This document shows positions 1 to 5,975 of a stretch of DNA of 6,418 nucleotides, one piece after another (position 1 is the first letter of the stretch; each line of letters begins with the position of its first letter). This DNA is from Thermoflexales bacterium (GTDB lineage: Bacteria > Chloroflexota > Anaerolineae > Fen-1058): positions 1-6,418 of the forward strand of contig JAFGFO010000210.1 of assembly GCA_016931085.1 (NCBI GenBank). Direction: 5' to 3'. A program made the position numbers and the translations under genes. The notes beneath the pieces were generated by a model that was not told where the DNA came from, ran no database searches, and worked only from the letters and a program-made list of their open reading frames with translations.

Positions 1-563
1 ATGCTGACGCTTTCCAGCACCAGGCCGTTTTCCTCCAGGTCACCCTTGACGCGGTTTTGCACCTCCTGGATAAAGTTCTCGCGTTCCTGGTGCAGGCTCA
101 TCAAGGTGAAGGTGGCTGCCACGTCGCGCAGCGCGCCGTCCAGCTTGGCGTCCACCAACTGCTTGACGACCTCGGCGTCGACCGTCTTGCCGCCGATGGT
201 GCGGGCGGCGTCGATGATGCCATTGATGGTCGGGGCGACCTTGATGTAAAAGATGGCCTTGATGTCGGCGTACTGCGGGTCGCGCGTGAGCAGCGCATTC
301 TGCTCGGTGCGCTCGATCTCGACCGCCATCGTGCGCAAATCGACCCAGGTGACTTCGTGAATAAAGCCAAACACCCACGAGCCGCCGTTCATCACCACCT
401 TGGGCGGGGCGTCGGGCTTGCGGAACAGGAACCCGCCCGTACGCACAAAGGCGCGGTTGGCCGGCGCTTTGACATAAGACTTGACGAGCATCACGAAAAA
501 TACTGAAACCAGCAATACCAAACCGCAAACGATCATCGCTACAAATGTAGTCGGGTCTAGCAT
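1..563 (-). CDS. yqiK: YqiK-type flotillin / SPFH-domain membrane protein, N-terminal part (C-terminus beyond window edge)
   Basis: Only the first 187 codons are present; the gene continues past the left edge. The start at 561-563 is supported by a perfect AGGAGG at 569-574, five bases upstream. Residues about 6-28 form one hydrophobic N-terminal segment (IVCGLVLLVSVFFVMLV). An SPFH/Band-7 domain follows, starting with KAPANRAFVRTGG. Signatures recalled from E. coli YqiK are visible in order: AFVRTG, VMNGGSWV, FIHE, VEIERTE, LLTRD, YIKV, AARTIGG, RENFIQEVQN and, at the visible end, GLVLESVS. Family members are usually about 500-600 residues, with a long Glu/Ala-rich coiled coil after SPFH that would lie outside this window. 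Flotillins are membrane-anchored scaffolds that oligomerise and organise membrane microdomains. Here the gene lies 66 bases downstream of a YqiJ-like gene on the same strand, the usual YqiJ-YqiK pairing. Family assignment is confident; any specific cellular role is inference. Confidence 0.9.
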   Translation of the reverse strand, partial: MLDPTTFVAMIVCGLVLLVSVFFVMLVKSYVKAPANRAFVRTGGFLFRKPDAPPKVVMNGGSWVFGFIHEVTWVDLRTMAVEIERTEQNALLTRDPQYADIKAIFYIKVAPTINGIIDAARTIGGKTVDAEVVKQLVDAKLDGALRDVAATFTLMSLHQERENFIQEVQNRVKGDLEENGLVLESVS

Positions 564-629: not shown

Positions 630-1475
630 CTACATCTCTGAAGGAACGACGATATATGTTTTCGTGGCGGCGTTGTATTCGACCAGGATCACTTCCGTAT
701 CGCGTAGGACGGGCGGCTGGCCGGCGTCCACCAGTGCAAACACCGTGATGAGCGTCCCCCCCCGGTCGCGCACCTTGACCTGGCCGTACTTTTCGTCCAC
801 ATGCGGGCTGGTCACGTGCCCGCGCAGCCCGACCAAGCCCCTGGCCGAAGTGGCCGTGCTGGAAAAAACGGGCAGAGCGCGGCCAATAAAGCCAGCCGTC
901 TTGCCGGTGATCCAGCCTCCGACGGCAAAGTCGGCTACCGTTATAGCCAAGAAACCCAGCGTGCTGAGAAAGCCGCGGCTGGCGTATTGGGGTACGATGC
1001 TCAACACCAACCAGTTCGCTATCCAGCCCAGCATGCCAAATCCGCCCAGCAAGATTAGCAAGATGATGGTCACCGGCGCCTGGCCCACGCCCAGGAACTT
1101 GAGTGCGCCTACCCAACCCGGCAGGCCGCCGGCGTCGACGTCGTGGGCCACGTCGTGGGCGAGCTCGGCGCCGTGCTCCACGTCCACATCGTGGTCCATA
1201 TCGTGGCTCACGTCCACATCGTGGTCCACGTCGGCGTGGATATCCACATCGTGGTCAATGTCCAGGTCGTGGTCAATGTCCAGGTCGTGGTCAATGTCCA
1301 GGTCGTGGTCGATGTCCAGGTCGTGATCCACGCCTACGTCTGCGTCAGCATCGTGCTCGTGCCCCAGGCCAGCAAACTGCAAGGCCGAAAGCCCCAGGAA
1401 GGCCAGCAGCGCCAACGAGAACGGAATATTGTACCAGGCCGTGGCAAAGGTCCAGATATCCAGTAGTGCTTTCAT
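630..1475 (-). CDS. yqiJ: YqiJ-type inner-membrane protein (OB-fold/DUF1449-like) with an Asp/His-rich loop
   Basis: 281 residues. The ATG at 1473-1475 is preceded by a perfect AGGAGG at 1481-1486, five bases upstream. Visible layout: hydrophobic segment 1 at residues about 14-36; a highly acidic, His-rich low-complexity loop at 39-114 (14 His and about 29 Asp); hydrophobic segments at about 134-161 and 169-190; and a soluble C-terminal domain from about 210 to 281 containing GLRGHVTSP, GQVKVRD, TLITVFA and EVILVEYN. That domain matches the small beta-barrel (OB-fold, NfeD-like) recalled for YqiJ. E. coli YqiJ is about 209 residues, and most of the extra length here is the loop. YqiJ/NfeD-type proteins partner flotillins, and the flotillin gene follows directly, so the two probably form one membrane-microdomain complex. 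The loop may bind divalent metal, which is inference. Asp falls at nearly every second residue from 42 to 98. Confidence 0.85.
   Translation of the reverse strand: MKALLDIWTFATAWYNIPFSLALLAFLGLSALQFAGLGHEHDADADVGVDHDLDIDHDLDIDHDLDIDHDLDIDHDVDIHADVDHDVDVSHDMDHDVDVEHGAELAHDVAHDVDAGGLPGWVGALKFLGVGQAPVTIILLILLGGFGMLGWIANWLVLSIVPQYASRGFLSTLGFLAITVADFAVGGWITGKTAGFIGRALPVFSSTATSARGLVGLRGHVTSPHVDEKYGQVKVRDRGGTLITVFALVDAGQPPVLRDTEVILVEYNAATKTYIVVPSEM
1251..1322 (-). repeat. 18-bp tandem repeat, four copies, in frame inside the YqiJ-like gene
   Basis: The plus-strand unit is GTGGTCAATGTCCAGGTC. Copies at 1251-1268, 1269-1286 and 1287-1304 are identical; the copy at 1305-1322 has one change (A to G). 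More degenerate units extend on both sides, roughly 1190-1340. On the coding strand one unit gives six residues, HDLDID, repeated four times at residues 51-74. Because 18 is a multiple of three, copy-number change by slippage would lengthen or shorten the loop without a frameshift. The near-perfect identity suggests recent expansion. Confidence 0.92.
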
Positions 1476-1891: not shown

Positions 1892-4063
1892 ATGTCACGT
1901 ATCGGTATACCGCGCGCGTTAAACTTTGTGCATCACTACCCGCTCTGGCGGACCTTTTGGGAAGAGCTGGGGCAAGAGCTGGTCGTCTCGCCGCTCACCA
2001 ACCGCCAAATCGTGGCGGCCGGCAGCAAGGTGGTGGCCGACGTCACCTGCTTGCCGATCAAGGTGCACGCCGGTCACGTCATCTGGCTGCGCGACGAGGG
2101 CCAGGTCGATTTTGTGCTGGCGCCGGCCATTCGCAGCGTCGAGCGAGACGCTTTTCACTGCGCCAAGTTCCAGGCCCTGCCCGATTTGACCAAGGCGACC
2201 ATACCCGATTGCCCGCCGCTGCTGGACATCGAGATCGACGTGCACCGGCGCAAAATCAGTCCCGAGCAAGCCTTTAAAAAGTGGGGCAGGAAATTCACGC
2301 TCAACCCCTTCAAAATCAACCGCGCCTGGGAAAAAGCGTGCCAGGTCGACGACGCCTACCGGGCGCTCACAATCAGGGAAAAGCTGACTTACCCGGAGGC
2401 TTTAGCGAGCCTCTATCCGGACGAATTTCCTGCGCAAGCGCGACCCAAGCTGGACGCCCAGCCTCTGACGATCGCCTTGTTGGGGCACCCTTACTGCCTC
2501 TACGACGACTATATCAACCACGACATGGTGAGCAAGTTGCGCGAGATGGGGGTACGTTTGGTCACCAGCGAAATGGTCGAGCCGGACAAGGCCGCCGAGG
2601 GTGTGCAGCAGGTGACCGGTCAAAAACGCTGGTTCTTTGAGGATTGGATGAGCGGGGCGGCCGGGCATTATTTACGCCAGCCGGACGTGGACGGCGCGAT
2701 CGTGGTACTCGCCTTTACGTGCGGCCCAGATTCGGCCATGACAGAAACCATCATCCGGCGCGCGCACGCCTGGAAACGCTCGTGCATGAACCTGGTGCTC
2801 GACGAACACGGCAGTGCGACGGGCATGATCACGCGCCTGGAAGCCTTCGTGGACATGCTCTCGCGCCAGAAAATGCGCGGGCAGTTGGAAACGCCTGGCG
2901 AGCCGATTGCGCCGCCGGTGGTCTTGCGCGAAAGCAAGCGCCCCGTGCTTGGCTTCCCGCGCATGGGGACGACCGAAATCCCGCTCAGATCCCTGGTGCG
3001 CGGCCTGGGCATCCGGCTGGAATTGGGGCCGCAGCTCAGCAAGAATACCGTTTCATTGGGCGTGCGCCACTCGCCCGAGTTTATGTGCGCGCCCTACAAG
3101 TATGTGCTGGGCAACATGATCGAGGCGCTCGAAGCGGGCGCCAACCTGCTGCTGTACATGGATGGGCCAGAACTGTGCCGCAACAGCACCTACACCCAAC
3201 TGATGCAAGATACCCTGCGCGACCTGGGCTATAAATTCACCTTCGTCTCGACAGCCTTGCTGGACGACCGGGTGATGGGCATCGCCAAGCTCTTGCGCCA
3301 ACTGTCGCCCGATTTCACCTGGGGGGGTGTCGTGCGCGAAATTCGCCTGGCCTTGGCCAAGATGAACGTGCTGGACGAGCTGGAGACGCGCGTGATGTGG
3401 GTGCGCGCCCGCGAAACCCAACGAGGCCGCGTGGACAAGGTGTGGGACCAGGCGATGCAGCGCGTGGACGAGGCCATGGACATCAAGGCGCTCAAGCGTG
3501 CCAAGCAAGACGTGCTGCGCAAGATCAAGGGCGTGGAGATCGACCCGGCCCTCAAGCCAGTCAGGATCGCCACGACCGGCGAATACTATGCCGTGCTCGA
3601 GCCGTTCTTCAACCAGGACTTGGAGCGCGAGCTGGGCAAGCTGGGAGCGGAGGTGCGTCGCACGCTGATGATCGGCGAGTGGATCCACAGTATGTTGATC
3701 ATGGAGTCGCTCGGCTTCCCCCGCAAGCCGCATATCCAACGCGCCGCCAAGCCCTATCTGCGCTGGGACGTGACCGGCGAAGGCTGGGTGACGATCGGGC
3801 AGGCCGTCATCCACGCGCGCAAGGGCTTCGATGGGCTGGTGGAGACGCTGCCCTTTACATGTGTCCCCGAAGTCACGGCCTTGAACATCTTGCCGCGCGT
3901 CAGCCGCGACTTTAATTTGCCCATCCTATCGTTGATCTTTGACGAGCAGACCGGGCACGCCGGGGTGCGCACGCGGCTGGAAGCGTTTGTGGACTTGCTC
4001 AAGCGCCGGCAGCAGGCAGCCGACGGCGTGGCGGGCTTTCGCCCGGCCCAGGCAGGCGCTTGA
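1892..4063 (+). CDS. Two-module 2-hydroxyacyl-CoA dehydratase-like Fe-S protein (DUF2229/COG3580-like fused to COG3581-like)
   Basis: 723 residues from the ATG at 1892, a start consistent with the conserved opening MSRIGIPRALNF. Module 1 (about 1-330) resembles DUF2229/COG3580 proteins and module 2 (about 350-705) resembles COG3581 proteins. The modules share ending motifs: LDEHG then TRLEAFVDML (314-323), and FDEQTGHAG then TRLEAFVDLL (694-703). Parallel cysteines are visible. In module 1 these are C53 (VTCLPIK), C90 and C277 (FTCGP); in module 2 they are C399 (FMCAPYK), C429 (DGPELC) and C657 (FTCVP). This fits the three-Cys ligation of a [4Fe-4S] cluster in each subunit of HgdAB-type dehydratases, so two cluster sites per chain are predicted. 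No signal peptide or membrane segment is seen, so it is probably cytoplasmic. The HgdC-type activase follows on the same strand and is the likely electron donor. The substrate is unknown; dehydratase, reductase or double-cubane-cluster activity are all possible. Confidence 0.85.
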   Translation: MSRIGIPRALNFVHHYPLWRTFWEELGQELVVSPLTNRQIVAAGSKVVADVTCLPIKVHAGHVIWLRDEGQVDFVLAPAIRSVERDAFHCAKFQALPDLTKATIPDCPPLLDIEIDVHRRKISPEQAFKKWGRKFTLNPFKINRAWEKACQVDDAYRALTIREKLTYPEALASLYPDEFPAQARPKLDAQPLTIALLGHPYCLYDDYINHDMVSKLREMGVRLVTSEMVEPDKAAEGVQQVTGQKRWFFEDWMSGAAGHYLRQPDVDGAIVVLAFTCGPDSAMTETIIRRAHAWKRSCMNLVLDEHGSATGMITRLEAFVDMLSRQKMRGQLETPGEPIAPPVVLRESKRPVLGFPRMGTTEIPLRSLVRGLGIRLELGPQLSKNTVSLGVRHSPEFMCAPYKYVLGNMIEALEAGANLLLYMDGPELCRNSTYTQLMQDTLRDLGYKFTFVSTALLDDRVMGIAKLLRQLSPDFTWGGVVREIRLALAKMNVLDELETRVMWVRARETQRGRVDKVWDQAMQRVDEAMDIKALKRAKQDVLRKIKGVEIDPALKPVRIATTGEYYAVLEPFFNQDLERELGKLGAEVRRTLMIGEWIHSMLIMESLGFPRKPHIQRAAKPYLRWDVTGEGWVTIGQAVIHARKGFDGLVETLPFTCVPEVTALNILPRVSRDFNLPILSLIFDEQTGHAGVRTRLEAFVDLLKRRQQAADGVAGFRPAQAGA

Positions 4064-4090
4064 TGCGCTCTTGGCAAGGGTGATTGTTTT

Positions 4091-4185
4091 TTACCACAAA
4101 GGACACCAAGGACACTAAGGTTTTCTTTGTGCTCTTCCCCTGGCACTTGCCGCGCCAGGGGCAAGTGTGTGTCCTTCGTGGTTAA
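4091..4185. repeat. Nested palindromic intergenic element with alternative hairpins
   Basis: The outer arms are ACCACAAAGGACAC (4093-4106) and, inverted, GTGTCCTTCGTGGT (4169-4182), matching at 13 of 14 positions. Just inside the left arm, AAGG and GACAC words recur with a 9-base period (4099-4120). Two perfect but mutually exclusive 8-bp hairpins lie in the centre: CCCCTGGC (4137-4144) with GCCAGGGG (4154-4161), and CACTTGCC (4144-4151) with GGCAAGTG (4160-4167). CACAAAG at 4096-4102 can also pair with CTTTGTG at 4125-4131. The ACCAC-AAGGACAC word resembles a dispersed repeat recalled from several environmental bacterial genomes. It sits between the two genes of the Fe-S/activase pair, so it may be a MITE-like insertion or a structured RNA spacer. 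Confidence 0.75.
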
Positions 4186-4212: not shown

Positions 4213-5217
4213 ATGATCAAGAGTTATTTGGGTATCGACGTGGGGTCAGTGACGACCAAGCTGGTGGTAGTGGACGAAACATACCGGGTGTTAGAATCGC
4301 TGTATTTGCGCACGCGCGGGCGGCCCCTGGAAGTCGTCCAGCAAGGGCTGCGCCAGATCACGCAAGAGATGGGCGACAACCTGAACATCGCCGGTGTCGG
4401 GACGACGGGCAGCGGGCGCTACTTGGCCGGGGTTGTGGTCGGCGCGGACGTGATCAAGAACGAGATCACGGCTCACGCCGTGGCCACGCTGCACTTTTTG
4501 CCAGGCGTGCAGACGATCATCGAGATCGGCGGGCAGGACTCCAAGATCATCATTCTGCGCGATGGCGTGGCAGTTGATTTCGCCATGAACACCGTCTGCG
4601 CAGCCGGGACGGGCGCGTTTCTCGACCAGCAGGCGGCGCGCTTGAACGTGAGTATCGAAAGCGTGGGCGAGCTGGCGCTCCGCTCCAAATCGCCGGTGCG
4701 CATCGCCGGCCGCTGCACGGTGTTTGCCGAATCGGACATGATTCACAAGCAGCAGATGGGCCACAGCGTCCCAGATATCCTGTACGGCCTGTGCCAGGCG
4801 ATGGCGCGCAACTATTTGAACAACCTGGGCCTGGGCAAAGACATCCGCGAGCTGGTCGTCTTCCAGGGTGGTGTAGCCTTCAACCAAGGCATGCTGCGCG
4901 CCTTTGAAGAAGCGCTGGACATGAAAGTGCACGTGCCACCGCACCACGACGTGATGGGCGCAATCGGGGCCGCCATGTTGGCCCGCGAAAAAATGTGCAG
5001 CAATGGGCACACGACCCACTTTAAAGGCTTTGGCATCAGCGAGCTGGAATATCGCACGACCTCCTTCGAGTGCCGTCACTGCACGAATCACTGCGAAATC
5101 GTCCAGGTCTTGGTGGGCAAGCAAGTAGTCGCGCGTTGGGGCGGGCGTTGCGAGCGCTGGGAGCTGGGCAGCACCCCCCAGCCCCAGGAGCAAAGCGCCG
5201 AGCCGGCCATGCCTTGA
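4213..5217 (+). CDS. HgdC/BcrAD/BadFG-type ATPase, activator of 2-hydroxyacyl-CoA dehydratase-like proteins
   Basis: 334 residues of the ASKHA-fold activase family (COG1924). Nucleotide-binding motifs are visible: GIDVGSVTTKLVVVD (7-21), GTTGSGR (63-69), IEIGGQDSK (103-111) and VFQGGVAFNQGM (216-227). The two cysteines that ligate the [4Fe-4S] cluster shared across the homodimer interface in HgdC are present: C129 in NTVCAAGTGAF and C168 in GRCTVFAESDM. By family, the protein is a homodimeric cytoplasmic ATPase that couples ATP hydrolysis to one-electron transfer to its partner, here most likely the 723-residue protein encoded just upstream. It is longer than HgdC (about 260 residues). The extra C-terminal part carries C287-x2-C290-x3-C294 and C313 (GGRCERW), a possible extra metal or Fe-S site. 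It ends in a Gln/Pro/Ala-rich tail. It probably shares an operon with the gene upstream. Confidence 0.93.
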   Translation: MIKSYLGIDVGSVTTKLVVVDETYRVLESLYLRTRGRPLEVVQQGLRQITQEMGDNLNIAGVGTTGSGRYLAGVVVGADVIKNEITAHAVATLHFLPGVQTIIEIGGQDSKIIILRDGVAVDFAMNTVCAAGTGAFLDQQAARLNVSIESVGELALRSKSPVRIAGRCTVFAESDMIHKQQMGHSVPDILYGLCQAMARNYLNNLGLGKDIRELVVFQGGVAFNQGMLRAFEEALDMKVHVPPHHDVMGAIGAAMLAREKMCSNGHTTHFKGFGISELEYRTTSFECRHCTNHCEIVQVLVGKQVVARWGGRCERWELGSTPQPQEQSAEPAMP

Positions 5218-5267: not shown

Positions 5268-5288
5268 CGCCTGCGCGAAGTGCAGGTG
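5268..5288 (+). other. Leader hairpin enclosing an SD-like sequence
   Basis: CGCCTGC (5268-5274) pairs with GCAGGTG (5282-5288) with one G-U pair and a 7-base loop. The 3' arm contains most of AGGTGA (5284-5289), the only strong SD-like word in the leader, but it lies about 20 bases before the ATG at 5310. A direct role in initiation is therefore doubtful. Confidence 0.35.
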
Positions 5289-5309
5289 AACCTTAAACTT
5301 GAAACTCAC

Positions 5310-5975
5310 ATGGACATTAGCTGGTTTGGACTGAGTTGTTTCCGGCTGCGCGATCGCACAGCCTCGGTTGTCACCGATCCCTACGGCAAGAACGTGGGGC
5401 TCCTGCTGCCGCGCGTGCGGGCAGACGTGGTCACCGTCAGCCAGGCGAGCGAGGAGCATAATTACACCAAGGGCGCCAAAGGCGATTTCAAGGTCATTGA
5501 CGGCCCGGGCGAATACGAAGTTTCGGGCGTGTTTATCACTGGCCTGGAATTACGCGGCGAGCGGAGAAAGCGCAAGACAGACCAAGCGGAGCTGCGCAAT
5601 ACGGTCTTTTTGCTCGAGTTCGATGATCTCAGCGTGTGCCACCTGGGAGGCCTGGACCACGTGCCCAGCCAGGCCCAAGTTGAAGAAACGCTCGAAGCCG
5701 TCGATGTGTTGTTGGTCCCGGTCGGCGGCGGCACGGCGCTGAACGCGGCCCAGGCCGCCGAGGTGGTCAGCCTGCTGGAACCACGCCTGGTTATTCCCAT
5801 GTACTACCGGCTGCCAGGCCTCGTTTCCCGCTTGGACCCGGTCGACAAGTTTCTGCGAGAAATGGGGCTGGGCGCCATTCCAGCCCAAGAAACACTCAAG
5901 GTATCTCGCAGCGGGCTGGGGGAAGAGACACAAGTTGTCGTGCTCGAGTCCAGGAACAAAGAAGAGGAAACCTAA
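5310..5975 (+). CDS. Metallo-beta-lactamase-fold protein (COG2220/UlaG-like) with degenerate metal site
   Basis: 221 residues. The ATG at 5310 is chosen because MDISWFGLSCFRL aligns with the usual N-terminus of this family (WLGHSCF); a GTG at 5280 would add ten unrelated residues. No good ribosome binding site precedes 5310. Family signatures are clear: VVTDPY (20-25), DGPGEYEVSGVFITG (64-78), CHLGGLDHV (110-118), VDVLLVPVGGG (131-141) and VIPMYYR (161-167). Metal ligands are largely lost. The usual HxHxDH after TVS reads QASEEH (45-50), keeping only the last His. HLGD reads HLGG (111-114), the His of IPMHY is Y165, and the His of GHSCF is L8. H50 and H111 remain. Active relatives hydrolyse esters or lactones using two metals; this one probably lacks canonical hydrolase activity and may be a binding or structural protein. 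The fold is intact, with no frameshift. It has its own promoter and terminator. Confidence 0.85.
   Translation: MDISWFGLSCFRLRDRTASVVTDPYGKNVGLLLPRVRADVVTVSQASEEHNYTKGAKGDFKVIDGPGEYEVSGVFITGLELRGERRKRKTDQAELRNTVFLLEFDDLSVCHLGGLDHVPSQAQVEETLEAVDVLLVPVGGGTALNAAQAAEVVSLLEPRLVIPMYYRLPGLVSRLDPVDKFLREMGLGAIPAQETLKVSRSGLGEETQVVVLESRNKEEET

Follow-up and report, generated by a model that had tools for sequence, protein, structure and literature searches.

A proposed reductase component with two cysteine triads in one chain, its tailed partner activase and its probable kinship to ether-lipid enzymes, in a Thermoflexales bacterium

A protein of 723 residues, composed of two modules (M1 and M2) with a cysteine triad in each, is encoded beside an activase gene in a 6,418-nucleotide stretch of DNA from a Thermoflexales bacterium (Chloroflexota, Anaerolineae; assembly GCA_016931085.1, contig JAFGFO010000210.1), the whole of which is hereafter referred to as the window. 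With its two triads, it almost certainly belongs to the benzoyl-CoA reductase/2-hydroxyacyl-CoA dehydratase (BCR/HAD) superfamily, and is proposed, with modest confidence, to be the reductase component of an apparently oxygen-sensitive, ATP-activated two-component radical-type iron-sulphur (Fe-S) enzyme, with the halves of a heterodimer joined in one chain and esters as its probable substrates. The single-chain component with its own tailed activase and its relationship to the ether-lipid enzymes PlsA (plasmalogen synthase) and Ger (glycerol ester reductase) are considered real, the role of the two triads in cluster binding being predicted. New here are the tie between stand-alone M1-M2 proteins and proteins of about 1400 residues of the order activase-activase-M1-M2 (hereafter, giants) and the invariant four-cysteine tail of the partner activase. 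Most of the relatives seen make the two halves as two proteins. Through enzymes of the PlsA/Ger type, anaerobes are able to form ether lipids, and certain of these lipids are used as geochemical markers.

Two homologous modules and their cysteine triads

The features of the two-module gene are as follows.

1892..4063, forward strand: two-module gene, 723 amino acids, ATG start, Pfam DUF2229 (8.9e-54)
1892..2926, forward strand: M1, cut here at residues 1-345, with a weak linker at 336-347; resembles Red1 of PlsA
2927..4060, forward strand: M2, residues 346-723; like Red2
2048..2050, forward strand: C53, triad 1, by conservation
2159..2161, forward strand: C90, triad 1, by conservation
2720..2722, forward strand: C277, triad 1, by conservation
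3086..3088, forward strand: C399, triad 2, by conservation
3176..3178, forward strand: C429, triad 2, by conservation
3860..3862, forward strand: C657, triad 2, by conservation
2210-2212, forward strand: C107, further conserved M1 cysteine in the close clade
2495-2497, forward strand: C202, further conserved M1 cysteine in the close clade, after the first strand of the C-terminal domain

A GAGAGAGAGG stretch lies a short way upstream of the ATG at 1892; there is a longer alternative frame with a GTG at 1775, but the closest homologue (P0001) also has 723 residues. Among the matches listed, the closest homologues with a named source come from Anaerolineales and Chloroflexi metagenome genomes, which makes an anaerobic member of the Chloroflexota the probable source. 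An artefact of reading frame or assembly is ruled out by 106 aligned homologues, which together with the window protein make up the alignment used here (A1; 120 homologues listed of 127, 14 shorter pieces left out).

A preliminary description, made from the window's letters, had proposed a single-chain fusion of two dehydratase-like modules ending in TRLEAFVDML and TRLEAFVDLL, each with three cysteines in corresponding contexts. The chain, both motifs and all six cysteines are present as described, and the modules are homologous: as single sequences they share 23% identity over 369 columns (BLASTP E 2e-13), and as profiles of 37 and 45 sequences they align with an hhalign probability of 100 and an E-value of 1.6e-42. 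The parallel between the triads is borne out in part. C53 and C399 share a profile column, as do C277 and C657; C90 and C429 lie six columns apart and correspond by position only, each being in a strand-helix linker.

Conservation of the six cysteines, a check set beforehand, was found. C90, C277, C399, C429 and C657 are cysteine in 107/107 rows of A1 and C53 in 105; the remaining two rows belong to sequences that are incomplete at the N-terminus and show a gap there. The other four cysteines (C107, C150, C202 and C298) are variable. When proteins encoded by one gene (fused), by separate M1 and M2 genes (split) and by giants were taken together, the M1 triad was cysteine in 81/81 at each position (13 fused including the window, 57 split, 11 giant). 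The M2 triad in genome loci and giants was cysteine in 87/87, 86/87 and 87/87 (13 fused, 63 split, 11 giant), the sole exception being a tryptophan at position 429 in one locus (L022). Within M1, C107 is kept in 80/84 rows of the close clade and C202 in 83/84, against 4/23 and 0/23 of the distant rows. Residues other than cysteine that are shared by 95% or more of the stand-alone rows and by 90% or more of the giants include H62, Y201, D205, E305 and R315 in M1 and R430, Y434, D495, E564, N574 and D684 in M2, and may be regarded as active-site candidates.

In confident models, both modules take the three-domain alpha/beta fold of the HAD, benzoyl-CoA reductase and double-cubane-cluster protein (DCCP) structures (Foldseek, VIA-align 2; M1 alone and the whole model), part of the comparison that the preliminary description had suggested. 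Each module has at least three conserved cysteines in strand-helix linkers and a partner activase ATPase is encoded at 4213-5217, as befits the superfamily. A single-sequence search of the PDB with the 723-residue protein gave no meaningful match; the kinship to solved structures was thus found via profiles and models. NCBIfam gave no named model for M1 or M2, and two giants matched none of its models but those of activases. The same triad occurs in 22 proteins of the dehydratase family PF06050, with spacings of 26-41 and 204-257. The resemblance in spacing that had been claimed stands for both intervals of M2 (30 and 228) and the first of M1 (37); the second M1 interval (187) is shorter than in the PF06050 proteins. 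Taken with the fold and the conservation, these triads support a predicted three-cysteine cluster site in each module, and because there are three invariant cysteines per module, they argue for one [4Fe-4S] site each and not for a double cubane.

Gene arrangement, the tailed activase and the giants

The occurrence of the two modules as one chain or two was examined in at least 80 loci from genome contigs, a survey and no census, in which both modules are complete in 67 loci and partial in 13. M1 and M2 are fused in 12 of the complete loci listed and form two genes in the other 55; these two-gene loci are therefore natural counterparts of the 'intramolecular heterodimer' put forward in the preliminary description, which is well supported. 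With distances computed from the first possible start codon, the split frames overlap in 29/55 loci and lie within 314 bp in 51/55, the gap being 963-1878 bp in the other four (L055, L067, L068 and L072). In L067, L068 and L072, M1 and M2 are separated by a gene for a PHP-domain protein (annotation from L067), with a radical SAM gene behind. In several Clostridia (L004, L006, L012, L057, L070, L078 and others), M1-M2, with or without the activase, comes after STAS, anti-sigma-type kinase, sigma-factor, spoVA and GerA-type genes, and TrpB-like and decarboxylase (lysA-like) genes often follow. In a quick tree with 13 fused, 55 split and 11 giant rows (79 in all), several branches are long and the deep order is unsure; the fused label changes at least four times on it, three of the changes being forced by starred branches. 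Recurrent fusion or fission of M1 and M2 is thus supported by the sequences compared, the direction being left aside.

The gene that follows M1-M2 in the window encodes the partner activase.

4213..5217, forward strand: activase gene, 334 amino acids, BcrAD_BadFG / TIGR00241 (1e-58)
4597..4599, forward strand: activase C129, invariant in 55/55 single activases
4714..4716, forward strand: activase C168, invariant in 55/55 single activases
5071..5151, forward strand: activase tail with C287, C290, C294 and C313 (CxxCxNxC...C), by conservation

From their positions, C129 and C168 are taken to be the ligands of the bridging cluster. Five solved activases of 243-276 residues align to residues 5-264 only of the 334-residue window activase. 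All four tail cysteines occur in every single activase (55/55) and in every second activase domain of the giants (12/12), but in none of the 11 first activase domains aligned, the twelfth falling below the score limit. The tail probably binds either zinc or a further Fe-S cluster. In the gap before this gene, an apparent imperfect inverted repeat, AAAGGACAC...GTGTCCTTCGTGG, was seen by eye only at 4089-4185.

Activase neighbours, counted by tblastn within 700 bp, are present in 51/67 complete loci (9/12 fused, 42/55 split), with the activase on the opposite strand in three of the nine fused cases; in 3/67 the contig ends too soon for a call. Among other activase-like genes fetched from seven genomes, a tailed activase was found elsewhere in five (L135-L139), two of which (L136 and L138) adjoin another DUF2229 gene; two fetched candidates (L140 and L141) gave no match. 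The genome (G010) of the Heimdallarchaeal locus L021 has several DUF2229 genes and a giant; on one of its contigs (L142), an activase frame contains a TAA. The two-module protein very probably depends on its neighbouring activase, and since M1-M2 is, in most of the loci examined, directly followed by this dedicated activase gene, M1-M2 proteins may be silent if expressed alone.

Relatives carrying activase domains were found by searching 20 genomes for DUF2229, which occurs in frames of at least 1000 residues in 11 (G002, G003, G006, G008, G010, G012, G014, G016, G017, G019 and G020) and in shorter frames only in the other nine; G004, the genome of Desulfotruncus arcticus, whose locus L006 has the three-gene form, likewise shows nothing but short DUF2229 frames. 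Twelve giant frames of 1127-1580 residues from ten genomes have the order activase-activase-M1-M2 (L103 being cut by the contig end). The M1 and M2 profiles matched all 12 giants, with 123-204 and 73-157 bits, respectively. Against 23 PF06050 proteins the best scores were 27 bits for M1 and 26 bits for M2, with 8/23 and 9/23 matched at E<=10. By these profile scores, the giants are the nearest relatives of M1-M2, far closer than the PF06050 proteins.

The PlsA of lactic acid bacteria is described as having the layout Act1, Act2, Red1, Red2 and is assigned to the BCR/HAD superfamily (PMC12838417), and alkyl ethers made in Escherichia coli are reported in the PlsA/Ger context (PMC13274423; PMC11150832). 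The giants are inferred to be PlsA/Ger by this architecture, set against the published descriptions and not against characterised sequences. Given the giant match and the published layout, M1 probably corresponds to Red1 and M2 to Red2, so that a relative of PlsA/Ger with its parts separate is probably encoded in the window. DUF2229 was also found in 4/14 control genomes, namely Thermotoga maritima, Lactococcus lactis, Thermus composti and Deinobacterium chartae. Thermotoga maritima has a tested Ger and Lactococcus lactis is kin of L. cremoris, whose PlsA was tested; Thermus composti and Deinobacterium chartae belong to mostly aerobic groups. Ger2 from Desulfatibacillum alkenivorans, which showed no activity upon expression, might have been a published stand-alone member, but its calculated 153 kDa is the size of a giant and it was not used as evidence. 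Among the titles listed in the literature searched, which included few subscription papers, none concerns a two-module protein that stands alone and has a dedicated activase.

Other genes of the window are the following.

5280-5975, forward strand: metallo-beta-lactamase-fold gene
630-1475, reverse strand: YqiJ-like membrane protein gene, upstream of the two-module gene
3-563, reverse strand: flotillin-like protein gene, partial, upstream of the two-module gene

The YqiJ-like gene, which adjoins the flotillin-like gene, contains an 18-bp tandem repeat at 1224-1325, with 4.3 copies and 98% matches, whose translation is rich in Asp and His.

Proposed function and alternative explanations

In the proposed reaction, the activase encoded next door would act as an ATPase dimer bridged by a [4Fe-4S] cluster; it would accept an electron from a ferredoxin-like donor and, as in the rest of the superfamily, use ATP hydrolysis to deliver this electron, at a very low potential, to M1-M2. 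By homology, fold and conservation, each module would hold one [4Fe-4S] cluster through its three invariant cysteines, one module (either M1 or M2) relaying the electron and the other offering an open iron site to the substrate. The substrate would be an ester or thioester carbonyl, most likely a membrane glycerolipid acyl ester as in PlsA/Ger, and the product a vinyl- or alkyl-ether lipid. By analogy with PlsA/Ger, ester reduction is moderately favoured over 2-hydroxyacyl-CoA dehydration, and the chances of a lipid substrate appear even. In loci titled Deltaproteobacteria and Syntrophobacterales, the fused gene of L017 and, by shared clusters, that of L014 lies in a lipid-type cluster, and a plsX-type gene follows the activase in nine loci.

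Several observations weigh against this proposal. A clearly lipid-like context was met only in L017 (and L014) among the loci annotated, and plsX itself is a housekeeping gene; the genes of Clostridia belong to a sporulation/spoVA block, and those of Dehalococcoidia have housekeeping neighbours. No activase match was obtained by tblastn in 13/67 complete loci, each of which offers over 3 kb of sequence behind the genes. A single branch of the tree separates the giants from every stand-alone row. T314 and E317-F319 in M1 and E685, G691 and T694 in M2, near the C-terminal motifs, are not kept in the giants, so the active sites may differ from those of the giants. Because of these residues, and because the window encodes M1-M2 and one separate activase and has no fused activation domains, the gene cannot, on its sequence, be filed as PlsA/Ger.

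A genuine 2-hydroxyacyl-CoA dehydratase, or an acyl-CoA enzyme resembling benzoyl-CoA reductase, fused into one chain and with each activase electron serving many turnovers, would have the same fold, the same triads and a separate activase as in HadBC-HadI; PF06050 is matched weakly at the M1 C-terminus, and many homologues of the two-module protein bear a precomputed PF06050 label. The match is, however, below the gathering score (18.5 bits against 28.4, E 0.0017), the giants are far closer than the PF06050 proteins, the contexts annotated include no CoA-metabolism operon, and 13/20 of the genomes searched carry separate PF06050 proteins, matched over most of the profile. Such an enzyme is considered unlikely, and the 'dehydratase' of the preliminary description is probably a wrong label, because PlsA/Ger, the closest architecture with a tested function, reduces ester bonds.

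The housekeeping and sporulation neighbours would be explained if the protein were a low-potential electron-transfer or maturation module whose clusters feed another protein or cofactor and not a small substrate. Its relatives are widespread among anaerobes and have no common catabolic context, and the DCCP offers a precedent, its fold being able to reduce small molecules although it is not known to serve a pathway. This role is judged improbable in view of the reductase-module architecture shared with the ether-lipid enzymes and of H62, Y201, D205 and E305 in M1 and R430, E564, N574 and D684 in M2, which are common to both and suggest a substrate pocket. An enzyme with a double-cubane [8Fe-9S] cluster, as in DCCP or BzdN, bound by all six cysteines together or with the extra M1 ones, is very improbable despite the DCCP chains among the best fold matches and the close-clade C107 and C202, as only three cysteines per module are invariant, C107 and C202 being rare and absent, respectively, in the distant rows, and the BzdN cluster is described as requiring six cysteines in one subunit (PMC11971306), close-clade M1 reaching five.

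To return to ester reduction, a wider scenario is offered tentatively and is rather doubtful. Stand-alone M1-M2 with the four-cysteine-tailed activase could be a widespread two-component ester reductase whose parts arrangement preceded PlsA/Ger, three genes (M1, M2 and activase) having fused repeatedly to two and fully, with a second, tail-less activase copy, to PlsA/Ger. Its product in anaerobic Chloroflexota, Clostridia and others could be ether lipids or a reduced lipid of a new kind, also in lineages without the fused enzyme, and the tail would carry an extra electron-entry cluster. The three-gene, two-gene and one-gene versions of what is apparently the same machine should be useful for structural work on the path of the electron to the substrate.

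Comparison with known systems

HadBC and HgdAB (PF06050) resemble the window system in module fold, in the three conserved cysteines of every subunit and in the separate activase. They differ in having two chains and acyl-CoA substrates, and score far below the giants against the M1 and M2 profiles; their solved activases, of 270-276 residues, align only to residue 264 of the window activase. BzdNO and DCCP likewise share the fold, with ligands carried by strand-helix linkers. C95, C128 and C380 of BzdO are described as binding one [4Fe-4S] cluster (PMC11971306). BzdN and DCCP bind an [8Fe-9S] cluster, whereas the window modules have three invariant cysteines each.

PlsA/PlsR and Ger, also of the BCR/HAD superfamily, likewise have two homologous reductase modules, Red1 and Red2, served by BcrAD_BadFG activase modules. 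There, Red1-Red2 are on the same chain as the activase modules, or occur as a plsA-plsR pair in C. perfringens; here, the chain consists of Red1-Red2 and the single activase gene is separate. Additional PlsA homologues without the activation domain are described in Bacillota, their role being called unclear in a 2026 paper (PMC13274423). Like the window protein, they have reductase modules without a fused activation domain, and probably form the same group, the two being set together by description and not by comparison of sequences. The section on these homologues in that paper names no partner activase, whereas here one is adjacent in 51/67 complete loci.
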